From a virus: 41,778 nt of DNA. This document shows positions 4,890-41,778 of this stretch, one piece after another. The notes beneath the pieces are model-generated. The model worked only from the letters and a program-made list of their open reading frames with translations. It did no database searches and was not told the DNA's origin. Both the position numbers and the translations under genes were made by a program. Numbering within the stretch: position 1 is the first letter of the stretch; every line of letters begins with the position of its first letter. The stretch covers positions 1 through 41,778 of IMG/VR virus record IMGVR_UViG_3300022925_000055, one strand, 5' to 3'.

Positions 4890-4933
4890 ATTATATCATA
4901 TCTTCGGAGGTATAATTATAACGAAATGGTAAC
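4890..4933 (-). promoter_or_regulatory. Extended -10 promoter plus direct-repeat site
   Basis: TGATATAAT (4898-4890) on the minus strand. GTTACCATTTCGTTATA (4933-4917) covers the place of a -35, so a bound protein could block or recruit polymerase. It drives the membrane peptide and HTH genes. If the HTH protein binds the site, this would be autoregulation (inference). Confidence 0.55.
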
Positions 4934-6100: not shown

Positions 6101-6487
6101 ATGACATCATCTTGTGGACCAGAAGCCTTTGGGGCTAATCCCGCCAACATTAAATGGAATGTTGTGCGAGGCGACACGTCTGAGCTACGTGTAGAGTTTT
6201 ACGAAAACGACGAAGCCACTGCTTGGGATACCAGCAGTTGGGAATATGCTGCGTCGGCCTATGATTACAAAAATGGCATCACAGATGAATTAGAAGTTGT
6301 CGCTGGCGACGGATATGTAACAATTACCGCAACAGCAGATATTACATCGCTATGGGGAGAAGGATATTCTCGCACCGTAGCAGAATTGGCTTTCGATCTT
6401 CAAGTAACAATTGACAGAGACACGGTGTGGACACCAGTCGTGGGGACTATATCAGTTATTGGAGACGTTACAGGAGGTAGTTTATAA
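6101..6487 (+). CDS. RGDT-motif beta-sandwich tail protein, copy 1
   Basis: This 128-aa protein contains [17 protein letters not shown] (about residues 18-34), followed by beta-strand-like segments and the end [14 protein letters not shown]. Copies at 7794 and 12726 share the RGDT strand near the N-terminus and a V-V-D/E-V-T-like end. The fold resembles the Ig-like/BppU-type domains used as baseplate or fibre adaptors, an inference from motif and context. The gene is leaderless, and the stop overlaps the next start as TAATG. Confidence 0.7.
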
Positions 6488-7050
6488 TGCCAACAGTTAA
6501 GATTGTACCGTTTCCAGGCGTACCTGGACCACAGGGCCCACGTGGACTACAGGGCATCCAGGGAGAGACTGGACTAACAGGACCAATGGGTCCACAGGGT
6601 GAGCAAGGCCCACAGGGAGAGCAGGGAATTCAGGGTGAGTCTGGAGTTTCAGAAATCACTTCGTATATTGTAGGTGGAGGAACAGATGGAACTCAGCCAA
6701 CATTCAGTGGAGACCCACTATTTGCAGGCGAAGCAATTGTTATTGGAGACCTTGTGCACTTTACAGTTAATGTAGATTTTGATAACATCACAAACTTTGG
6801 AACGGGGCAGTATTATGTCACACTACCATTCAATGCAAGAGATGAATACTACTTCAGAAGTGGTCACCTTTATGATGACTCAAGTAGCAAGAGCTATGGG
6901 ATTTCTGGCAATGTAGCAGCAGGCTCAAGCCAGCTTAACCTTTACTACACGGCTAGCAATGGTCAGGACGAGACCTTTACTTCTACTACACCAGTGTCCC
7001 TAACAGTAGAAGATAATTTTCACATTAGCGGAACGTATCTGAAATCCTAA
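6487..7050 (+). CDS. Collagen-like tail fibre
   Basis: In this 187-aa protein, residues about 10-52 are Gly-X-Y repeats ([16 protein letters not shown] and so on), a trimeric collagen-like stalk. A C-terminal beta-rich head of about 130 residues ends [17 protein letters not shown] and may be the receptor-contacting or trimerising domain. The start codon overlaps the stop of the RGDT protein (TAATG), implying co-production of adaptor and fibre. Confidence 0.85.
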
Positions 7051-7055
7051 CAATC

Positions 7056-7064
7056 TGAGATAAT
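7056..7064 (+). promoter_or_regulatory. Extended -10 promoter (TGAGATAAT)
   Basis: The TGn element and a GATAAT lie 7 nt before the ATG at 7072; no ribosome site is present. Confidence 0.55.
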
Positions 7065-7071
7065 AGATTAT

Positions 7072-7776
7072 ATGGAACAGGACTTCCCAAAAATTCGTAA
7101 AAAGGCTTCTCCGTATGAAAAAGAAGCTTCCTCGCAACCACTACTAGATGGTCCCCAATATATTGCTGTGCCAGGGCCAGAAGGCCCACGTGGTCCACAG
7201 GGGGAGAGGGGTCCACAGGGTATTCCTGGTAAAGATGGTCCAGAAGGTCCTAGGGGAGAGAGAGGTCTTCCAGGAAAAGATGGAGAAAGTTATTTTCCAA
7301 CTTACAAACAAAAGACTGGATGGGCAAGGTATACTGCCAAGAAGCAAGAGCAGATATCTTTGGGTGCCAAGAAAGGTAGAGACGGCTGGGTATCTTTTGA
7401 CCTAGACGCATCTGGAAAAGATACTACAGAACTATACCTACCAGAAAAGTCTGTAGCTCTTTACAACAAAGAAGCAGATAGAATTAATCTCAAACACCTC
7501 AAGCTAGGAACAAGACTACAAATCACTTACGACTTTGATTTTGTGACCCTAGGTTCCAATACTGAGCTATGGCTACGCTCTGTATTCCCAAATAGCGAAA
7601 GAGCATATACATCATTTGTAGGTCTTTTCAAGTATGAATATGAGTATCGCCTATCTGTAACACACTTCCTTACCTTGGAAGAAGATTCTGAAAAAACACA
7701 CGGTATTTTGCCACAAGCAAGATCAGATATGAACAGCCTCTTCACACCTCTAAGTATTACAATTTCTGTCAGCTAA
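7072..7776 (+). CDS. Second collagen-like tail fibre
   Basis: In this 234-aa protein, a charged N-terminus ([20 protein letters not shown]) is followed by Gly-X-Y repeats at about residues 34-72 ([16 protein letters not shown]). The C-terminal domain of about 160 residues has predicted beta strands and ends LSITISVS. It differs from the head of the first collagen-like fibre, so the two may recognise different ligands. Leaderless start. Confidence 0.8.
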
Positions 7777-9603: not shown

Positions 9604-11088
9604 ATGGCAACTAAGACTTATGGAACAACTGGCGGAAGCAATGTTGCCTATGTAACAAGTTCTGATAGAGCAATTATTTCTAGCTTCACCCCAGATGATT
9701 GGGGAGGAAACACAAACCCACAAGAAGGAAGAGCTCTCTATACTGTTACCAAAATGACAGTGTATGCAAGGCTGGGAGACGCTGATAGCGGAGACAATGG
9801 TGTCAACGTTGTTATGGGTAGTACTACTGCATCTTTTAATAAAGCAAGAACTAGAGCGTATAGTACCTATGATGGATCAAGCCAGCTTGGTAGTAGCTAT
9901 AAATATATGGCAGGGAATGTTTCTGCAGTATTAGGAAGCACCTCAGAATATTATGGTGGACTGGAAGCTCTGGGTCCAGGAGGAGCATACACCTTAAGGG
10001 GGTCCGCTTCAGGAGAGACTACGTATGTTGTAGCACCAAGCACTGGCTCTGTTACCTATAGTTGGAGTGGATATCAGCAATACCTCTCTCTTGAATACTA
10101 TGGACTACCGAATGCACCATCTTCTTTGTCTGCAACCACAACAGGTCAAAATAGCGTAAGCTTGTCTTGGGGATCTGTCTCTGCTTCTGGTGTTGCTACT
10201 GGTGCAGATGGATATGATGTTCAATATAAAGCATCATCATCTTCTACTTGGATATCATTTACAACAACTACTTCTACATCTGCTTCTGTAACTGGACTAT
10301 CTGCAGGAACAGCCTATGACTTTAGGGTAGCAGCCTATGACAGCACTATCAGAAATGTTGTATCAGGATCTACTGGGCCATGGTCATCTACAGCCAGTGC
10401 AACTACTGAATCAGATACCCCACCAGTTCCAGCACCAACATGGAGTGGCTCTTTTAACTCTGGACAAATTAATACTGGGTATGTTCAAGACTCTGCAAGG
10501 GCATCAGGACACGATACTGCATATGGAAATATCTATATATCTTCTGGATCGTTGCCACCAGGGTTATCAGGAAGTGCTTCTGGAGAATACTACTACGTAA
10601 GCGGAACCCCAACATCTTCTGGAACATACACATTTACTCTTCGTGCAGAAAACGACGGCGGGCCAGCAGAACAGCAGTTCTCTATTTATATAGCATCTTT
10701 GCCAGCCCCGTCATGGATTGACCAGACACTAGCTACTACAGCTACAATTGGAGTATCCTATTCTGATTCGGTTTCAGCATCCAATGTTGATAGCTGGTCC
10801 TATTCGGGAACTCTTCCAGCAGGATTAATTTTTAGCAATGGCTCTCTTGGAGGAACCCCAACAACAGCAGGAAGTTACACCTTTACTATCTATGCCTCCA
10901 ATACTTCTGGAACTACAGAAAAAACTTTTACAATTACAGTTGAGTCAGCACTTCTTAATGGAGGTTACAGAATGACAGGACCAAGCTCATCTACTCAACT
11001 AACAACTTTTAAAAGGTATAACGGAAGCAGCTGGGTGGATCTGACAGTAGCTAAAAGATATAATGGAAGTAGTTGGGAAGATATCTAG
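9604..11088 (+). CDS. Minor tail protein with FN3 and two Ig-like (He_PIG-type) domains
   Basis: In this 494-aa protein, an N-terminal virion-type domain is followed by a fibronectin-III domain (about residues 173-265; LSWGSVS...YDVQYKASS...VTGLSAGTAYDFRVAAYD). Two putative-Ig domains with the LPPGLSGSASGE / LPAGLIFSNGSLGGTPTTAG signature follow. The C-terminus repeats RYNGSSW twice. It would be virion surface decoration or carbohydrate contact. Ribosome site TAGGAGG overlaps the upstream stop. Confidence 0.8.
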   Translation: MATKTYGTTGGSNVAYVTSSDRAIISSFTPDDWGGNTNPQEGRALYTVTKMTVYARLGDADSGDNGVNVVMGSTTASFNKARTRAYSTYDGSSQLGSSYKYMAGNVSAVLGSTSEYYGGLEALGPGGAYTLRGSASGETTYVVAPSTGSVTYSWSGYQQYLSLEYYGLPNAPSSLSATTTGQNSVSLSWGSVSASGVATGADGYDVQYKASSSSTWISFTTTTSTSASVTGLSAGTAYDFRVAAYDSTIRNVVSGSTGPWSSTASATTESDTPPVPAPTWSGSFNSGQINTGYVQDSARASGHDTAYGNIYISSGSLPPGLSGSASGEYYYVSGTPTSSGTYTFTLRAENDGGPAEQQFSIYIASLPAPSWIDQTLATTATIGVSYSDSVSASNVDSWSYSGTLPAGLIFSNGSLGGTPTTAGSYTFTIYASNTSGTTEKTFTITVESALLNGGYRMTGPSSSTQLTTFKRYNGSSWVDLTVAKRYNGSSWEDI

Positions 11089-12059
11089 TGACGAATGCAC
11101 TTGTATTCGGTGCAGGTGGACTTATAGGAAGTCATCTGGTTAAAAGGCTTAAGGCTATGGGCTACTGGGTCAGGGCAGTGGATATAAAGGAGCCAGAGTT
11201 TTCAAAATCTCCAGCAGATGAATACCTTCTCTTAGACCTAACAGATTATGAGTCTGTAAAAAAGTCTATATCTCTACATGGCCACCCATTTGACGAAATA
11301 TATCAGCTAGCAGCAGATATGGGTGGTGCAGAGTATATTTTTGTTGGCGACAACGATACAAATATCATGACTAACTCAGTGCAGATAAACCTTAACCTAA
11401 TAAAAGCAATCCTTGAGCTGGGAATGTATAGTTCAAAAATATTTTATTCAAGTAGTGCTTGTATTTATCCAGAAGAGGCACAGCTAGACAGTAGTATAGT
11501 TAACTTAGTAGAAACGGCTGCCTATCCAGCTAATCCAGATTCAGAGTATGGATGGGAAAAACTATTTAGCGAGAGGTTGTTCTCAGCTCTGCACAAAAAC
11601 TACGGAGTCCCCGTAAGAATTGCTAGATTTCATAATGTCTTTGGGCCAGAAGGAACATGGACTGGCGGAAAAGAAAAAGCACCAGCAGCAATTTGTAGAA
11701 AGATAGCATCTGCTAACTGGGGGACAGAAGTAGAAATCTTTGGCGATGGAGAACAGCTAAGATCTTTTCTATTTATAGAAGATGCATTAGATGGTATCTA
11801 TGCACTAATGAAATCTGAATGTGTATTGCCAGTAAATATAGGCTCCGACATGCCTGTCACAATTAATCAGCTTTTTGACATAGTGGCAGACATTGCTGGC
11901 AAAAGACTAAAGAAAAAGCATATACCTGGACCAACAGGGGTTGTTGCTAGAAACTCAGAAAACACTTTTGTATTTCAGCAAACTGGATGGAAGCCAAAAA
12001 CCCCATTGGCTAGAGGATTAGAAAAAACTTTTTGGTGGATAGCAGACCAGATAACTTAG
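11088..12059 (+). CDS. NAD-dependent sugar-nucleotide epimerase, GDP-mannose 3,5-epimerase-like
   Basis: GTG at 11088 is chosen as start: it overlaps the upstream stop (TAGTG) and places the Rossmann motif GAGGLIG at residues 8-14. The extended-SDR YxxxK is YGWEK at about 154. SSSACIYPE (Cys about 125) and GTWTGGKEKAPAAICRK closely follow plant GDP-mannose 3,5-epimerase, where that Cys and a Lys in the second motif are the acid/base pair. At 323 aa it is slightly shorter than plant enzymes. It sits between fibre genes, so it probably alters a host or virion glycan precursor. Confidence 0.8.
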   Translation: MTNALVFGAGGLIGSHLVKRLKAMGYWVRAVDIKEPEFSKSPADEYLLLDLTDYESVKKSISLHGHPFDEIYQLAADMGGAEYIFVGDNDTNIMTNSVQINLNLIKAILELGMYSSKIFYSSSACIYPEEAQLDSSIVNLVETAAYPANPDSEYGWEKLFSERLFSALHKNYGVPVRIARFHNVFGPEGTWTGGKEKAPAAICRKIASANWGTEVEIFGDGEQLRSFLFIEDALDGIYALMKSECVLPVNIGSDMPVTINQLFDIVADIAGKRLKKKHIPGPTGVVARNSENTFVFQQTGWKPKTPLARGLEKTFWWIADQIT

Positions 12060-33043: not shown

Positions 33044-33095
33044 TGGTATAATTAGACTTGAGGAAACGAAGCCCTCTTATTCTATGAAAAAGAGG
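33044..33095 (+). promoter_or_regulatory. Promoter and possible switching leader of the major tail gene
   Basis: TGGTATAAT (33044-33052). In the leader, CCTCTT (33073-33078) can pair with AAGAGG (33090-33095), hiding the AGAGGTGA ribosome site, or CCTC can pair with upstream GAGG (33060-33063). These pairings exclude each other. No regulator is known. Confidence 0.5.
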
Positions 33096-33104
33096 TGAAT
33101 AAAT

Positions 33105-33749
33105 ATGGCATACACACGTGGTTCTAGCACTAACATTATTGTTGGTGCAGCTGCTCTCTTTACCTTTGGTACAGAGATGGCTGACTCCGACCTACCAGCA
33201 TACGCTGATGGCGAGTCAATGCGTGACACACTGCAGGACGACAGTACTTTCACTAACGTTGGATACACCATGAATGGTTTGGAGCTTCAGTTCCAGCCAG
33301 ACTTCGGTGAGGTCCAGGTTGACCAGGTACTTGACGTTGCCAAGCTATACAAGCAGGGCATGCAGGTCAACATGAACACGACATTTGCTGAGGCTACCCT
33401 AGAGAACCTTTTGGTTGCAATTGCTGCATCCAGCAGCGATCTCTATGACCTCACCGCAGGAACAGGTCTTTCAGACGGTTCCAAGGAGATGCTAGTTAAC
33501 GCTGGTAATCTTGGTGAGTGCCCAGTAGAGCGTGGTCTTGTTGCTGTTGGTCCAGGTACAGGTGACTGTGCTCCAACAGAGCAGGTAGAGCGTATCTACG
33601 TTGCATACCGTGCATTGTCAATCGACAACGTAACAGTATCTGCAAAGCGTGATGAGGCTTCTATGTTCGACGTATCCTTCCGTTTGCTACCAGACAACAA
33701 TGGTGCATACGGTAAGATCGTTGACCGTATTATCCCAGCAGGAGTGTAA
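33105..33749 (+). CDS. Major tail (tube) protein
   Basis: This 214-aa protein follows the tail terminator and precedes the chaperones. It has repeated beta segments (GYTMNGLELQFQPDFGEVQV, VERIYVAYRALSIDNVTVSA) and a C-terminus RLLPDNNGAYGKIVDRIIPA as in tube proteins. Ribosome site AGAGGTGAA. Ends before a terminator. Confidence 0.85.
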   Translation: MAYTRGSSTNIIVGAAALFTFGTEMADSDLPAYADGESMRDTLQDDSTFTNVGYTMNGLELQFQPDFGEVQVDQVLDVAKLYKQGMQVNMNTTFAEATLENLLVAIAASSSDLYDLTAGTGLSDGSKEMLVNAGNLGECPVERGLVAVGPGTGDCAPTEQVERIYVAYRALSIDNVTVSAKRDEASMFDVSFRLLPDNNGAYGKIVDRIIPAGV

Positions 33750-33763
33750 TAACTTCATAAAAG

Positions 33764-33800
33764 ATTCCCCTGTCAAGCTATTGCTTGCAGGGGTTTTCTT
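33764..33800 (+). terminator. Intrinsic terminator after the major tail gene
   Basis: CCCCTGTCAAGC/GCTTGCAGGGG (one bulged T) with a short TATT loop, followed by TTTTCTTTT. The next -10 starts almost at once. Confidence 0.85.
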
Positions 33801-33801
33801 T

Positions 33802-33810
33802 TGCTATAAT
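33802..33810 (+). promoter_or_regulatory. Extended -10 promoter (TGCTATAAT)
   Basis: Sits within the terminator's T-rich end, with the ATG at 33817 6 nt after the hexamer: a leaderless start. Confidence 0.7.
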
Positions 33811-33816
33811 AGTTAG

Positions 33817-34494
33817 ATGGCTAATCGGGTATACGACAGTGAGACAATCACGCTAATAGATGGCCGTAGTATATACGTTACCCCACTAAAGATCTATTAC
33901 CTTCGTAAGTTTATGGACAGTTTTAATAAACTATTTACTGCAACCACTGAAGATGAAAAGCTAGACATACTACTAGAGTGCACAGCAGCAGCAATGGGGC
34001 AATACTGTCCAGATATAGCTACTAAAGAAAAGGTAGAGGATTCTCTTGACATGGAGGGTCTGTATAAGATTATTGAGATTGCTGGTGGTATCTCGTTTAA
34101 AGGTCAGCCAGAAGAAGACAAGGTAAGAGAGCCAGACGGCTCTACATGGGATACTCTAGACCTAGTAAAGCTAGAGTCAAGAGCATTTTTATTGGGAATC
34201 TGGAAAGACTACCACGAACTAGAAACATCTATATCAATGCCAGAGCTAATAGCCATCCTTGAAGCTAAAAGCGAACTAGACCATGCTGATAAGAAGTTCC
34301 TTGCTGCAATCCAGGGTGTCGATTTAGATAAAGAGACTGGACAAAGTAGGCAAGATGAGTGGACAGCTATGAAAGAGCGTGTATTTGGAAAACCTAAAAC
34401 AGATCCTAATGACGTAACATCTCTTCAAGGTAAGAAGGCAGCAGAGGCTGGATTCGGCATTGGCATGGGCCTCAACTATGAAAGAGTTGAATAA
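33817..34494 (+). CDS. Tail assembly chaperone, long form (GT-like)
   Basis: In this 225-aa protein, the N-terminal ~95 residues (SETITLIDGRSIYVTPLKIY...LRKFMDSFNKL...YKIIEIAGGI) are paralogous to the next gene. A C-terminal part of ~130 residues (FLLGIWKDYHELETSISMPE) resembles the extension usually reached by frameshifting in gpGT. Here it is read in one continuous frame. It probably recruits tape measure and tube subunits. Leaderless. Confidence 0.75.
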   Translation: MANRVYDSETITLIDGRSIYVTPLKIYYLRKFMDSFNKLFTATTEDEKLDILLECTAAAMGQYCPDIATKEKVEDSLDMEGLYKIIEIAGGISFKGQPEEDKVREPDGSTWDTLDLVKLESRAFLLGIWKDYHELETSISMPELIAILEAKSELDHADKKFLAAIQGVDLDKETGQSRQDEWTAMKERVFGKPKTDPNDVTSLQGKKAAEAGFGIGMGLNYERVE

Positions 34495-34508
34495 TTTAGC
34501 CCCCTCTA

Positions 34509-34517
34509 TGGTATAAT
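34509..34517 (+). promoter_or_regulatory. Extended -10 promoter (TGGTATAAT)
   Basis: Gives the short chaperone its own transcript. The ATG at 34554 has AAGAGGAGA upstream. Confidence 0.65.
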
Positions 34518-34553
34518 TAATAACACCATATTGGTAAATAAGGAAGAGGAGAT

Positions 34554-34877
34554 ATGGCTACAACAGTGAATGAAGCAGAGACCCTAAAGTTGATTGACGG
34601 GACAGAAATTTCCGTACGTCCACTAAAGATTTCCCTGCTTCGTGATTTTATGAAGACATTTGAGGGTATAGCAGACGTAGCTACGGACAATGACAAGTCT
34701 ATGAATATCCTAATGAAGTGTGTGCAGATTGCTATGAAGCAGTATAGTCCAGAGATTGCTGGTGACCTAAAGTCACTTGAGGACAACATTGATCTACCAA
34801 CTGTATACAGCATTATTGAAAAGGCATCGGGAATTAACATGACCGAGGCTTTGGGCGGAAACAACCTGCCTAAGTAA
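34554..34877 (+). CDS. Tail assembly chaperone, short form (G-like)
   Basis: This 107-aa protein has AETLKLIDGTEISVRPLKIS...LLRDFMKTFEGI...VYSIIEKASGIN, which aligns along its length with the N-terminal half of the preceding protein. No slippery heptamer or downstream T frame is present: only 25 nt separate it from the tape measure. The G:GT ratio would therefore be set by separate promoters and start sites. Confidence 0.75.
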   Translation: MATTVNEAETLKLIDGTEISVRPLKISLLRDFMKTFEGIADVATDNDKSMNILMKCVQIAMKQYSPEIAGDLKSLEDNIDLPTVYSIIEKASGINMTEALGGNNLPK

Positions 34878-34902: not shown

Positions 34903-37900
34903 ATGGCTGATATACAGTCAAATATCAATGTAAATATTGATACGTCCAATGCGTTGGCGGCAGTCAAGCAACTTCAGGCACAGATATCAGCCTTTCATTC
35001 CTCCATACGTAATTCTGGTAACGCAGCAAACCAGGCACTTTCTGACAATCTTACTAAGAATCTTGTCAACTCTATTAATGCGACTAAGCAATTCTCTGCT
35101 TCGCTAACTACGGTCAATAACCGTGCACAAGCTTTTACATCTGCTCTAGAAAAGAACAAGTTTTCTCTAGGGCAGTATTTCCGTTATGGTGCAGCAACCA
35201 CCAAGACTTTTGGAAAAGTATTCCGTAAAGAATTTAACACCATTGAGCAGGTAGCTCAAGAGCGTGTTAAGACTATGCAGACCCAGTTTATTACTCTGGG
35301 TAAAAATGCAAGCGGAGCCTTTGAGGCCATTAAGGTTAAGCCACTAACACTTGACATGCAGAACCTGGGAACTCAGGTAGCAATGACTGCACAAAAGCAG
35401 CAGATGTTTAATCAGCTACTTAATCAGGGATCAACAAACCTTCTAAACTTTGGTAAGAACACCCAGTGGGCTGGTCGCCAGCTAATGGTTGGTTTGACAA
35501 TTCCACTGAGCTTGCTTGGTGGTGCAGCTATGAAGACCTTCTCTGAAATGGAAGAGCAGGCAATTAGATTTAAGCGTGTATATGGAGAGCTCTTTACAAC
35601 CGAGTCAGAGACCAATGCAATGGTTGAAGAGCTAGATGCTCTTGCTAGAAGCTTTACCAAGTATGGCGTTGCAGTAGCAGACACAATGTCCCTTGCTGCA
35701 GATGCTGCTGCTATGGGTAAGATGGGTGCAGACCTTACCGCTCAGGTATCGGAAGCAACGAGGCTTGCAGTTCTTGGTGGGGTAGAGCAATCAGAAGCCC
35801 TGCAGACAACCATCTCTATTACAAACGCCTTTGGCACAGCAGCAGAAGAGCTAGCTGGAAAGATTGACTTCCTTAACGCTGTTGAGAACCAGACAGTAAC
35901 TTCGATTGAAGATCTTACCATTGCTATCCCTAAAGCTGGTCCAGTTATTAAAGAGCTTGGTGGAGATGTAGAAGACCTAGCCTTCTTCCTGACAGCCATG
36001 AAGGAAGGTGGAATTAATGCCTCTGAGGGTGCTAACGCCCTAAAGTCTGGTCTTGCCAGAATGATTAACCCTACTAAGGCAGCATCAGAATTCTTGGCAC
36101 AGTTCAACATTAATGTTAATGAGATTGTAGAAAGTAATGCTGGAAACATTACAGGTGCAGTTCTTGAGCTAGCCAGTGCACTAGACACTCTAGATCCACT
36201 AAATAAGTCACGAGCAATTGAGGAACTTTTCGGCAGGTTCCAGTTTGCACGTATTTCAACACTGTTCAACAACGTTGTAGCACAAGGAAACCAGGCACAA
36301 AGGGTTCTTCAGCTTACAGCATCAACTAGTGAAGAGCTAGCTATTCTAAGTGAGCGAGAGCTTGGCAGGGTAGAAGACTCACCGCTATACAAATACCAAA
36401 AAGCAGTAGAAGATGTTCAAAAGGCACTGATGCCTTTGGGGCAGCAGTTCATGGAGCTTATAACACCACTTCTGCAGTTTGCTACAAGGCTCCTAGAAGG
36501 ATTTAATAACCTTGACGGCGGAGTTAAAAAGTTTATTACTGGTGCAATTGCAGCACTAGGACTTGTTGCCCCAGTTGCCCTGATGACATTTGGTTTGTTT
36601 GCCAATGGTATTGCAAACCTTATTAAGGGCTTTGGGCTAATCCGTAGTCTATTCCTAAAGGTAACCTATGCAGGAACTGGTCTAAGCTCACAGCTATCTT
36701 ATATGACTCAGGAGCACCTGGAGGCTGCTAGTGCAGCGAATGCACTTGGTAGCACACACGGTAACCTGATGAATATCTTTACCGCAGAAACAACTGCAAT
36801 ACAAAACCTTATCAGGGCCTATGACCAAGCTACAGCAGCAATTCAACGTAATAACGTAGCTGCAGGCACACGTGCACGTGGTGGTGCTGCTGGAAGCATG
36901 AAGCTTGCAAGCGGTATTGTTTCTGTTCCTGGACCAAAGGGAGCAGGAGACATTGTCCCAGCAATGCTTTCACCTGGAGAAGCAATCGTTCCTGCAGAAA
37001 TGGCACAGAAGTATGCCCCACTCATTAGGGGTATGATATCCGACAACATTCCAGGTTACAGCAAGGGTAGGGAAGGCCGAAGGGGAGACAACAGAGCAGG
37101 AACAACAGAAAGACGATACACCAAAGACTTTATCGATGAGTATGGAGAAGATCAGGGCCAGGCATATGCTGAAAGGCAAAGGCAGATTACAGAGGCAGAG
37201 CAAAGAGCAATTAAAAAGGCTGCCAAGCAAAATGAAAAAATTACTGGCCCAGTTGCTGACAGATACTGGGAACAAACAGATGCCGCTCACCTTGCAGATA
37301 AGTCTAGTGGATTTAGGTTTGGTAAAACTGTAAGGGCTGAGTCCGCAGTTTCAAATAATATTCTAAATTCTTTCAAGGGGCCTGGAGCAGGAAATGCTCA
37401 AAACAGAGAAGCACTAAAGAAATATCTCGATAAGCAAACACAAAGCTCCAAGAAGACTGCCTCTATTCTTAAACAGCTTGATCAGGGCTATGGGCTTACT
37501 GGTAAAAACGAAAAGTTGTTTGGGAAAGCACTTGACGAAGTTGGAGCAGATCTACGCTCTGGCAAAGCTACCTATTCGAGAAGTGGTAAAGGAAAAACTT
37601 TTGCTGGAACTGGTATTAGGTATGCAGGAGTTGCTGGTGCAGCAATTGGTGCAAGACAAGCAGAGTATGACAAGCTAAGTCCTAAAGAGAGAAGAGTGCT
37701 TGAGGGTCAAAGGCAAGCCGTTGTCAAAAACACTAAGGCAACAGAGAAAGATACAAAAGCAACACAGAAAAAGACTGCTACAACCAAAAAGGCTACTAAC
37801 ACTACAGCTAAGTCTGAGAGAGCAGAGGCAAAATCTGCTGCAGCTAGAAAAGGCTGGGAGACTCGTAGGGCAAACGCAGCAGCAGGTGCTGGCATGGCTC

Positions 37901-40900
37901 CTGGTATGGCAGCCCCAATGTCTCGTGAAGACAAGAAGCTTATGCGTCAGCAAAGAGCCCAGAGGCGTGCACAAATCGGCGGTAGGGCATTTGGTGCACT
38001 AGGAACAGCATCAATGATTGCTGGAATGGGCAGCATGATGGGTGGTCCAGTAGGAGATATTTCTCAAAAACTAATGGGACCGCTGATGGCAGCCTCAGCT
38101 CTTTCTGGAATTTTGCCAATGCTTATGAATCCAGTAGGTCTTGTTGTTGCAGGTCTAGGTGCAGCTGTTGGTGGATTTATGCTGCTACAAAAGACTCTCA
38201 AGGATGCTACAGAGTCGGGAAGAGAAGCAGCCAAGGCTATGACTATGACCTCTGATGAGCTAGAGGAAATGGCTAAGGGTGCAGGTAATGTAACTGCCTC
38301 ATCTGTTGCAGAGAGAAGAAGAGCTGGTGCCCTTTCTGGTGGAGAAAGAGTTAACTCCCAATATGGTCAATCATTCATGGATTCAGAGTTTGGAAAGACA
38401 TTTTTGTCACAAGCTGAAAAGAGAATAACAGAAGGAGAGTCCAGCAAAGCAATTGCTGAAGGATTTGCCCAAGAGCTTTCTTATGCAATTCTACAGGGTG
38501 CCGTAACACAAGATCAGGCAATGAGCATTGCTGCAGAGTTGGGCTACAAGCTACAGGACTACTCAATCTCTTCAAAGATTCAGGCAGACCTTGTTGCACT
38601 TTACGGACCTAACGGAGAAAACCTTCTGACAGATCCGCTGTCTATTGCTACGCAAATTCAAACTGGACAAACAAGGCAGCAAGTATCTGCATATGAAAAC
38701 TTTGAGAATACAAGAACAACGCAAAGGCAAGAAACGACTAGCGGAACACTAATGAACCAGATTGCTGGAGGTGCAATGACAGCAATTGGTGCTGGTATAA
38801 CATTTGCATCTGGTGGAACCCTTTCAGCCCTTGGAGTGCCACTCATGATTGCTGGAATGACTACAATGCTTGGTGCCGAGATTGTTGAAACCATTGGAGA
38901 CACCCAGGAAATTAATAAAGCTGCTGGAGTAGCTGTTCAGCTAGGAGCGGAGCAGCTCGCCCAAAACCAGGGGCTTCTTGACTCCATTCAGATGCAGTAT
39001 GATAATCAAATTGCACAGCTAGAGGCAAAGAAGCAGGCAGCTAAGACAGACGAAGAGCGTGCAGAAATTGAGGCTCAGATTACTTCTAAGATTGAGCAAA
39101 GGGATGCATCTTTAGAAAAGCAAAAGCAAGCAAATGCAGAAATCTTCCGAAATATTTCTGAACAGGCAGAGGCAATGGGGCCACAGTTTACAGATGCCAT
39201 TAACCTAGCGATTGATGAGCGATTCAAAGATGCTAGCGGTGCAATGAAGGCAGCTGCAGAGCTTGCCAAGGAAAGCCTTGAAGGTCTACAAGATGGAAGC
39301 TTTAAGACAACGCTTTCTATTGGACTTGCATCTGGAGAGCTAGACCCAATAACAGTTAGTAACCTTATAAACGCTAATGAAGCAGGTAACGGAACAATAA
39401 GTAGTAAATTTAACCTTCTAGTAAGTGCTCAGGGTACGGCAGAAGCCAACCAAGTTGTACAAATACTTGCTGCTGCTGGAGTGCAGACATCAAACTATGG
39501 AGTAATGCTTGATCTATTTGCAAAGAACGACAAAGACTTTGACTACTACTCTAATGCACTTTTGCAGCTATCTCAACTTGGAACAGAATATGGGGCAGAG
39601 GTTGACTTAAATGTAAATGGGGAGCAAAAGGTAAAGGAAGTTGCTCAAAACCTTAAAGATATTGAAGACCTCCCACCAGTAGTTAGTCAGGAAATTCTTA
39701 CTAAATATCTAGAAGAGCATCCTGGTATGAGTACAGACTCTAAAGACAAGCTAAAAGCACTAATCGATAATTGGGATCTATTCTCAAAGGGTGCAAATAC
39801 TGCCCAATTTGATGTAGTTGTTAACTATATGGCAGCAGGAAGCTTGGCAGATCGTGCAGTTGCAGAATATATTGCTGCAAATCCAGGAAAGCAGGGAGAG
39901 CTAAACGTGGCCAATACTATTGGCGGCTATGTTGGCTCTTCTATGAGAGAAAAGATTCAAGAAGAAGCCCTCGCTTGGTTTACAGGAAGAGGAAACCCAG
40001 ATCAAAAAGATCCAGAAACAACAGACCCAGGAAATACTGGCGGAACAGCTATAGACCCTATTGACGGAATCCTTGAAAGACTAAAGAGGCTACGAGATCT
40101 AGCAATTAATGCTAAGGGTGGAATTACAGAGCTCAAGAGTGTTATTAATAGCGGACTAACAAAGTTCTTTGGAACTGACCAAAAGCTTCTATTCTCTGGC
40201 TACAGCTCAGACTTCGTTAATGCTGTAATGGCAATGGATGAAGGCACAAGGGAAAGATTCGTAAAGATTAGCGATGGTGTTCTTACAGTAACTTCTGCTG
40301 GTAAAGCACTAGCAAAGGCTTACTCAGAAATTAAACTTGGAGAATTCTCCATGAGCCTTACACAAGGACTTGCAGATACGAATAAGCAAATTCAGGCAAT
40401 GAATATTCTTCAGTCCCGTGGCCTATCTAATGCAGACTCCTTTGATATCGTAAGGGATGCATCTCTTGCTTATGCAATTGCTACAGCTGCTACAACCGAA
40501 GAGGTAGATGCACTTATTGCCTCATTTAGGAAACTAGAAGACGCACAATATGACCTTAAGACTTCTACTACCGATGGTATGGAGTCAGAGATTGGTTCGG
40601 CATTTAACGACATTAAAGAGTTCTTTAGTGCACAGGAAGAGGCTGTCAATCTAGCCTTTGAGGTTAACAGTGCAGCAAGCAATGCCATTATTGCAGAGGC
40701 ACAAAATCAAATCATGGATTACCAGTATGTAGTAGATGACCTCAACTATGCTCTTGACCAGATTAAAGAGCAAGAAGATGAGATTAACGAAAAGTATGAC
40801 AAGCGTGTAGAAGCACTTGAAAAGGTATCAGAGGTCAACCAAGACATCATTAACCAGGAGAAGGGCCAGCTAGGAATTGCCCAGGCCTTGGCATCTGGAG

Positions 40901-41778
40901 ATATTGCAGCTGCTGCAAGAGCAGTTCAAGACTACCGTGCAGATCAGGCTAAGAGGCAGCAGGATAGGGCAAAGGAAGTTCTAGATGTAGCAAGAGAGCG
41001 TGAGCTAGCTTCTATTACTGCAGAAAACGGAAAAACTCGCCTAGAAATTGAGACTGAGCTAAAGGATTTGCAAAAAGAGATTGCAGCTATTGAAGAAGAA
41101 AGACTAGAGCCAGCCCAAAAGTACTTGAGGGAGCTGCAGAGACAGCGTGACTTAGCACTTGAGGCTATTGGAGAAGATGGATATCTTGGAAAGACTAAGA
41201 AGGAATGGGCTAACGTAGAGAATGCGGTAAGGCTAGCAAAGGTTGAGTCCGAAGGATTTACAGACTCAATCAAGGAAGCCCTACTGCTTATTCCTCAGCT
41301 TAAAGATGCATATAAGAATAACGGAAAACAAGAGGGCCCAGCGGACGATGGACTAACACAAGAGCAAAGGGATGCAATTGCTAAGATTAAGTCCAACAGA
41401 CAAGCCGTAAGGGACAGCGATGGAACAACTGCAGCCGACAAGGTAATGATGCAAGAAAACATCAGGCTCATTAAGATGCTAGATGCTGCTGGTATTAGCA
41501 GAAGCCTGTTTATGTCTGGTGGAGGAATGGTTCCAAAGTATTATGCAGCTGGAGGATATGCAAGAGGAACTGACAGCATTCCTGCTATGCTAACCCCAGG
41601 AGAGTTTGTTGTTCGTAAATACGCTGTTGACAAGTTTGGTGCAGATAGGCTAAAGGCAATAAATTCTGGTGCATATAACGGCGGAAACATGTATAATAGT
41701 TATGAGCTAAACGTAAACGTTAAGTCTGATGCTAACCCTGATCAGATTGCTAGAGCAGTCATGACACAAATTAAGCAG
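34903..41778 (+). CDS. Tape measure protein, open at the right edge
   Basis: At least 2292 codons without stop from the ATG at 34903, with GTGAGGTG 7 nt upstream. A tape-measure core (about residues 200-400; MVEELDALARSFTKYGVAVA, GAGD-like repeats of helices) is followed by hydrophobic stretches near 542-580, 1030-1100 and 1283-1330, and a Lys/Ala/Thr-rich linker with AARKGWETRR near 980. Two copies of an SPGE motif are AMLSPGEAIVPAEM (about 686) and AMLTPGEFVVRKYA (about 2226). It sets tail length and probably reaches the cell membrane at injection. Confidence 0.9.
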   Translation, partial: MADIQSNINVNIDTSNALAAVKQLQAQISAFHSSIRNSGNAANQALSDNLTKNLVNSINATKQFSASLTTVNNRAQAFTSALEKNKFSLGQYFRYGAATTKTFGKVFRKEFNTIEQVAQERVKTMQTQFITLGKNASGAFEAIKVKPLTLDMQNLGTQVAMTAQKQQMFNQLLNQGSTNLLNFGKNTQWAGRQLMVGLTIPLSLLGGAAMKTFSEMEEQAIRFKRVYGELFTTESETNAMVEELDALARSFTKYGVAVADTMSLAADAAAMGKMGADLTAQVSEATRLAVLGGVEQSEALQTTISITNAFGTAAEELAGKIDFLNAVENQTVTSIEDLTIAIPKAGPVIKELGGDVEDLAFFLTAMKEGGINASEGANALKSGLARMINPTKAASEFLAQFNINVNEIVESNAGNITGAVLELASALDTLDPLNKSRAIEELFGRFQFARISTLFNNVVAQGNQAQRVLQLTASTSEELAILSERELGRVEDSPLYKYQKAVEDVQKALMPLGQQFMELITPLLQFATRLLEGFNNLDGGVKKFITGAIAALGLVAPVALMTFGLFANGIANLIKGFGLIRSLFLKVTYAGTGLSSQLSYMTQEHLEAASAANALGSTHGNLMNIFTAETTAIQNLIRAYDQATAAIQRNNVAAGTRARGGAAGSMKLASGIVSVPGPKGAGDIVPAMLSPGEAIVPAEMAQKYAPLIRGMISDNIPGYSKGREGRRGDNRAGTTERRYTKDFIDEYGEDQGQAYAERQRQITEAEQRAIKKAAKQNEKITGPVADRYWEQTDAAHLADKSSGFRFGKTVRAESAVSNNILNSFKGPGAGNAQNREALKKYLDKQTQSSKKTASILKQLDQGYGLTGKNEKLFGKALDEVGADLRSGKATYSRSGKGKTFAGTGIRYAGVAGAAIGARQAEYDKLSPKERRVLEGQRQAVVKNTKATEKDTKATQKKTATTKKATNTTAKSERAEAKSAAARKGWETRRANAAAGAGMAPGMAAPMSREDKKLMRQQRAQRRAQIGGRAFGALGTASMIAGMGSMMGGPVGDISQKLMGPLMAASALSGILPMLMNPVGLVVAGLGAAVGGFMLLQKTLKDATESGREAAKAMTMTSDELEEMAKGAGNVTASSVAERRRAGALSGGERVNSQYGQSFMDSEFGKTFLSQAEKRITEGESSKAIAEGFAQELSYAILQGAVTQDQAMSIAAELGYKLQDYSISSKIQADLVALYGPNGENLLTDPLSIATQIQTGQTRQQVSAYENFENTRTTQRQETTSGTLMNQIAGGAMTAIGAGITFASGGTLSALGVPLMIAGMTTMLGAEIVETIGDTQEINKAAGVAVQLGAEQLAQNQGLLDSIQMQYDNQIAQLEAKKQAAKTDEERAEIEAQITSKIEQRDASLEKQKQANAEIFRNISEQAEAMGPQFTDAINLAIDERFKDASGAMKAAAELAKESLEGLQDGSFKTTLSIGLASGELDPITVSNLINANEAGNGTISSKFNLLVSAQGTAEANQVVQILAAAGVQTSNYGVMLDLFAKNDKDFDYYSNALLQLSQLGTEYGAEVDLNVNGEQKVKEVAQNLKDIEDLPPVVSQEILTKYLEEHPGMSTDSKDKLKALIDNWDLFSKGANTAQFDVVVNYMAAGSLADRAVAEYIAANPGKQGELNVANTIGGYVGSSMREKIQEEALAWFTGRGNPDQKDPETTDPGNTGGTAIDPIDGILERLKRLRDLAINAKGGITELKSVINSGLTKFFGTDQKLLFSGYSSDFVNAVMAMDEGTRERFVKISDGVLTVTSAGKALAKAYSEIKLGEFSMSLTQGLADTNKQIQAMNILQSRGLSNADSFDIVRDASLAYAIATAATTEEVDALIASFRKLEDAQYDLKTSTTDGMESEIGSAFNDIKEFFSAQEEAVNLAFEVNSAASNAIIAEAQNQIMDYQYVVDDLNYALDQIKEQEDEINEKYDKRVEALEKVSEVNQDIINQEKGQLGIAQALASGDIAAAARAVQDYRADQAKRQQDRAKEVLDVARERELASITAENGKTRLEIETELKDLQKEIAAIEEERLEPAQKYLRELQRQRDLALEAIGEDGYLGKTKKEWANVENAVRLAKVESEGFTDSIKEALLLIPQLKDAYKNNGKQEGPADDGLTQEQRDAIAKIKSNRQAVRDSDGTTAADKVMMQENIRLIKMLDAAGISRSLFMSGGGMVPKYYAAGGYARGTDSIPAMLTPGEFVVRKYAVDKFGADRLKAINSGAYNGGNMYNSYELNVNVKSDANPDQIARAVMTQIKQ

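Follow-up and report, generated by a model that had tools for sequence, protein, structure and literature searches.

Two tail assembly chaperone genes apparently in place of programmed frameshifting in a clade of uncultured relatives of Streptomyces phages

The frameshift of the tail assembly chaperone genes is among the most conserved recoding events of tailed phages, and its usual explanation is the need for a fixed ratio between the G and GT proteins. In phage lambda, many gpG and few gpGT, at a ratio of about 30:1, act on the tape measure protein; G binds to it, and T to the major tail protein (PMC5009743). In TP901-1, a mutant restricted to the fused protein produces particles that look normal and are non-infectious (PMC4493119). 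For T4-like phages, a short gene and a fused long gene without frameshift are reported (Vladimirov, Gautam and Davidson 2022, Virology 566:9-15, as cited in PMC10885494). Here, we describe a large clade of uncultured relatives of Streptomyces phages in which the frameshift has apparently been replaced, once, by two genes.

The window, that is the whole stretch of 41,778 nt analysed here, is an IMG/VR virus record and carries two genes of this type on its plus strand. By the open reading frames, they are flanked by the major tail protein gene (33105-33749, +) on the upstream side and by the tape measure gene (34903-41778, +) on the downstream side. The upstream neighbour is identified by phrog_885, phrog_2175 and synteny with an annotated major tail protein. 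The long gene, GT (33817-34494, 225 aa), has G- and T-like parts in one frame, as an earlier note made from the sequence had claimed: phrog_10504 covers the N-terminal G domain (33817-34116, aa 1-100), and phrog_10474 matches only the C-terminal T domain (34141-34491, aa 109-225). The short gene, G2 (34554-34877, 107 aa), consists of a G domain only. Its protein is covered by phrog_10504, has no phrog_10474 match and shares 46% identity with GT residues 1-94 (E 2e-24), which agrees with its earlier description as a paralogue limited to the G part. A six-frame search found no other copy of a G-type protein in the whole record. The tape measure gene, recognized from annotated relatives, lies directly downstream of G2; its frame is open from the ATG at 34903 and extends past the window end. 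No T frame is present in the window sequence between G2 and this gene. Elsewhere in the window, a nucleotide-sugar epimerase gene (11073-12059; phrog_540, E 2e-73) is found inside a region of tail-fibre and collagen-like genes, beside a gene with Ig-like or Fn3-like repeats recognized by eye (9604-11088), and two adjoining genes with collagen-like G-X-Y repeats (6487-7776) stand among the putative tail-fibre genes.

The earlier note had left room for the long gene being something other than a chaperone, and the homology of its C-terminal part to the -1-frame T ORF of relatives speaks against this. Identity of the T part is about 40-48% to the Streptomyces phage T ORF, which is annotated as tail assembly chaperone, and 57% on average to the T of other frameshift relatives. 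By tblastn, relatives occur in 130 phage records (127 Streptomyces and 3 Rhodococcus), many of them annotated as tail assembly chaperone. In those examined, G and T are in different frames, T being -1 to G, and the annotation of several joins the two as a frameshift product. The putative assignment of both genes to the gpG/gpGT functional class thus rests on the position between major tail protein and tape measure genes, on the homology to annotated chaperones and on the layout of a short and a long form with a common G domain. Against it weighs that the searches showed no sequence homology to the classical gpG/gpGT of lambda: there is no Pfam match, and phrog_1932 matches weakly (E 0.0024 at best). 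The overlapping T of the frameshift class is absent from the window locus, where T is in frame with the upstream G and none lies behind G2. A PDB sequence search gave nothing useful and a PDB fold search no match. In the AlphaFold model of GT, the G part is confident (pLDDT blocks of ∼88-93, residues 11 to 90) and the T part weaker. The best named viral match of this model in BFVD is a tail assembly chaperone (A0A6J5QVP5, E 1e-4, TMt 0.72), and the match to the GT of phage N15, also in BFVD, is weaker (prob 0.97, TM 0.40).

Loci were gathered from six IMG/VR scans (two with the window proteins and four with T-domain alignments as queries), one genome-contig scan and a few reference phages, and were scored with G and T profiles; each scan contributes the best 80 loci of >550 matching stretches, and rarer forms may escape. 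Among the resulting 420 loci, 323 carry GT in frame with a downstream G (216 distinct cassettes) and 83 carry G with T in the -1 frame (61 distinct cassettes); the remaining 14 are cut contigs or split matches. The earlier note had proposed to scan relatives for a single-gene version, and such frameshift forms do exist, in sister phages. Within this sample of the best 80 per scan, all 406 complete regular loci have one or the other architecture, no intermediate was found (GT with a -1 T, or a frameshift cassette with a second G), none of the complete two-gene loci lacks G2, and in no case is G2 followed by a T-like frame. We considered a chance arrangement and an assembly artefact for the two-gene form, and its recurrence in 216 distinct cassettes rules out both. 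The genome-contig scan returned a single locus, a frameshift form whose contig is binned with a cyanobacterium. The frameshift-form relative L195:6001-6279 is part of a 110-kb contig assigned to a cyanobacterial MAG, which could be a misbinned phage contig or reflect a different host. In the frameshift loci L225:2495-2776 and L274:2495-2776, T runs on in another frame towards the end of the contig, either through a sequencing error or in reality.

The two architectures also differ in their slippery sites. An in-phase CCCAAAC, CCCAAAT or GGGAAAC is located near the G end in 55 of the 61 distinct frameshift cassettes, inside the overlap with the open -1 frame, and the other six have CCCGGAA at the same place, three of them being Boydwoodruffvirinae references. 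Read as C CCG GAA, the latter is a non-canonical slip site, the other frameshift relatives carrying an XXXAAAY heptamer. It is found at L003:2785-2845, L004, L007, L198, L199 and L202; its carriers include the Boydwoodruffvirinae Streptomyces phages Mildred21, Coruscant and Bartholomune, and the three GenBank records examined with CCCGGAA annotate T as a separate downstream gene. Among the two-gene phages, no in-phase heptamer is found in the last 60 nt of 92 of the 97 distinct G2 genes, and the GT linker is free of heptamers in 83 of 97. A minority of linkers has AAAAAAN or TTTAAAN in phase; a dnaX-like slip was ruled out there, the heptamers being sporadic. At one two-gene locus (L020:7058-7067), GGGAAAC is in phase near the G2 end and is possibly a relic of the ancestral slippery site. 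For the window, the earlier note had reported neither a slippery heptamer nor a T frame. The absence of a T frame stands, and the statement on the heptamer has to be corrected, as a weak in-phase TTTGGGC is present at 34850, near the G2 end. A -1 slip at this position leads to a TAA about six codons on, and it cannot yield GT because of this early stop and because no T-like frame lies behind. The same lack of a T frame behind the short gene answers, in favour of the earlier note, its question whether this gene has a frameshift product.

To place the change on a phylogeny, we used a marker tree of the major tail protein, whose gene thus serves as an independent marker here, concatenated with two neck-region proteins (145 rows, 628 columns) and rooted on the Streptomyces frameshift phages. 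In this tree, the two-gene phages form one clade (support 100) nested among frameshift phages, with one state change. All outgroups, that is the Stanwilliamsviridae Streptomyces phages and the Rhodococcus phage Francesca, have the G/T(-1) form. In the G-domain tree, which has few columns and long GT branches, the G domains of GT group into one long-stemmed clade (SH-aLRT 96); GT and G2 as a single clade are not rejected and give a likelihood above that of the free search. A single clade for the T of GT is not rejected either (p-AU 0.9). A single origin of the two-gene form and the direction of the change are thus supported by the tree. G2 is closer to the frameshift G than the GT copy is (61% versus 43% mean identity), and it is also the better conserved between phages, with a mean pairwise identity of 69% versus 53% for the G part of GT, the latter being lower in 97% of pairs. 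The G domains of GT and G2 share 43% mean identity.

The earlier note had further assigned a promoter to each gene, one leaderless and one with a strong ribosome site, and the sequence is in accordance with this. GT is preceded by the predicted extended -10 promoter TGCTATAAT (33802-33810, +), which ends 6 nt before the ATG at 33817, so that its transcript is predicted to be leaderless, whereas G2 has the predicted extended -10 promoter TGGTATAAT (34509-34517, +), a leader and the Shine-Dalgarno region AAGGAAGAGGAG (34540-34551, +; duplex of -8.8 kcal/mol) ahead of its ATG at 34554. To this we add a strong intrinsic terminator ahead of the GT promoter (33767-33802, +; -19.4 kcal/mol, z -5.8), located in the interval behind the major tail protein gene and made of a hairpin (33767-33793) followed by TTTTCTTTT.

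This contrast is general in the clade. A TGN-extended -10 is present in 94 of 95 distinct GT upstreams, and in 90 of the 95 it is located 5-9 nt before the start codon (mean of 1.1 expected by chance from dinucleotide shuffles). None of the 98 distinct G2 upstreams has it so close; in 97 of them, its distance to the start is 20-40 nt. Within 70 nt upstream, a hairpin that resembles a terminator and has a T tail occurs in 95/95 GT and 0/98 G2 cases, one shuffle each of the GT upstreams giving 11. The -10 is a perfect TATAAT in 97/98 G2 upstreams versus 16/95 for GT, and the median Shine-Dalgarno duplex is -10.2 versus -2.8 kcal/mol. Within phages, GT has the weaker -10 in 76 of 92 and G2 in one of 92, and GT has the weaker Shine-Dalgarno in all 92; the contrast persists in 92 dereplicated representatives. 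From these upstream signals, it looks as if GT is kept low and G high. A promoter and leader arranged as in G2 also precede the frameshift G gene, and the ancestral signals thus seem to have been retained by G2. The window shows the difference in leader and Shine-Dalgarno but none in the -10, both of its hexamers being perfect TATAAT; there, leader, Shine-Dalgarno and read-through would have to set the ratio on their own.

A missing Shine-Dalgarno need not mean low output, because leaderless translation can be robust in actinobacteria; in mycobacteria, it is comparably robust to leadered translation (PMC4633059). Mycobacterial leaderless reporters show a lower predicted transcript production (PMC7148126), and transcription may outweigh translation in the G:GT control, with mycobacteria taken as a guide that may not be the group of the host. 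A generic -35/-10 scan showed no promoter excess (19 found versus 20.5 expected), because these phages use extended -10 promoters. We also observed 17 TGNTATAAT sites in the window versus 2.1 expected (examples at 33044, 33802 and 34509 on the plus strand and at 4890 and 12681 on the minus strand), many just before gene starts and several 6-9 nt before the start codon. This suggests a phage with many single-gene promoters, some of them leaderless.

The sequences show both architectures with their distribution and homologies, a slip site and T frame that have been lost, two-gene phages that form a single clade, and signals of opposed kinds ahead of the two genes. Considered together, these findings make it very probable that an ancestral single gene with a -1 frameshift was replaced by two tail-chaperone genes, the ratio being now set by expression. 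The most likely route would be a tandem duplication of the G~T cassette. The upstream copy would then have become a permanent GT gene by in-frame fusion, and the downstream copy would have lost T and the slippery site while keeping the ancestral promoter and Shine-Dalgarno. Both proteins would be made and act as gpG and gpGT, many G coating the tape measure protein and few GT recruiting the major tail protein. A permanent GT requires a separate source of G, as the fused-only TP901-1 mutant is non-infectious, and G2 would supply it. The excess of G over GT would be set by expression: on the GT side by a promoter behind a terminator, a -10 that is usually non-consensus and the absence of a leader, and on the G2 side by a consensus -10, a leader, a strong Shine-Dalgarno and possibly read-through from the GT transcript. 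We therefore infer that two genes, and not one slip, control the G:GT ratio. It is likely, though with less assurance than the replacement as such, that this clade gave up programmed frameshifting on a single occasion and re-established the ratio through an expression circuit, in which an attenuated, terminator-shielded leaderless GT is opposed to a consensus, Shine-Dalgarno-led G.

Three other explanations have to be weighed. That frameshifting still operates, at the G2 3' end or in the GT linker, draws on the in-phase heptamers of some members, namely the window TTTGGGC at 34850, GGGAAAC at L020 and the AAAAAAN or TTTAAAN of a minority of GT linkers. We regard it as extremely improbable, as 92/97 G2 ends and 83/97 GT linkers lack a heptamer, no T-like frame lies behind any G2 among the loci listed, and the window slip at 34850 meets an early stop. 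It is also very unlikely that GT alone performs both functions, or a new role, and that G2, a paralogue in decay or with a specialised task, is dispensable as gpG, which would leave no two-gene ratio. The G domains of GT and G2, at 43% mean identity, may indeed not be interchangeable. However, among the loci listed G2 is found in every complete two-gene locus, its identity between phages exceeds that of the G part of GT (69% versus 53%), and the strongest signals, the consensus -10 and the strong Shine-Dalgarno, are on its side; such constant presence, conservation and signals are unlike decay.

The remaining explanation reverses the direction, the two-gene state being ancestral and the frameshift relatives derived from it by loss. 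In the free G-domain tree, the G domains of GT fall outside G2 and the non-Streptomyces frameshift G, as an old duplication would have it. Against this, the outgroups (Stanwilliamsviridae and Francesca) are all G/T(-1), the marker tree has one change with the two-gene clade nested, a shift of T from upstream of G2 to the G2 3' end costs more steps, and the tests do not reject a single GT+G2 clade, whose likelihood is the higher one. We thus hold this reversal to be very improbable, and retain the replacement of a frameshifting gene by two genes, in which the tandem duplication is the step that we infer from these relationships.

If the replacement is true, the clade is a natural experiment in which the ratio requirement is separated from recoding itself. 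The frameshift was lost in one clade and is retained by its sisters, and the ancestral sequence can still be recognised in both; such a contrast makes it testable whether selection keeps the ratio, the coupling on one mRNA or the slip. It would also provide a comparative case of duplication and subfunctionalisation in place of recoding. For annotators, paired tail chaperone genes should not be forced into a frameshift.

Text searches of the open-access literature found no earlier report that relatives of frameshifting siphoviruses carry such a two-gene form, that this form arose once, or that its genes are split into a leaderless and a Shine-Dalgarno-led one. The idea of a short plus a fused long gene is already known from T4-like phages, and the one-sentence description in PMC10885494 matches the window in having one gene of each kind. 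The T4-like phages are different and contractile-tailed, whereas in the window clade the switch is on one branch, its sisters use the frameshift, and the opposition of the expression signals is conserved. What appears to be new is the siphovirus-type case, together with its single origin and the contrast between the signals of the two genes. The laboratory TP901-1 mutant with fused gpG-gpT has, like the window, a fused GT without frameshift, but it lacks a separate G gene and is non-infectious, whereas the natural two-gene phages keep a separate G. In lambda (Xu, Hendrix and Duda 2004; in PMC5009743), a short G and a long G-T lie between the major tail protein and the tape measure as in the window, with the same presumed need for excess G; lambda uses one gene and a slip at one site, and the window two genes with separate promoters and no slip. 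The closest named relatives of both genes are those of the Stanwilliamsviridae Streptomyces phages (Mildred21, Coruscant, Patelgo and Francob), which have the same gene order and the same G and T families. Unlike the window, they carry T in the -1 frame, have no second G, and slip sites are present as CCCAAAT in Patelgo and Francob and as CCCGGAA in Boydwoodruffvirinae.
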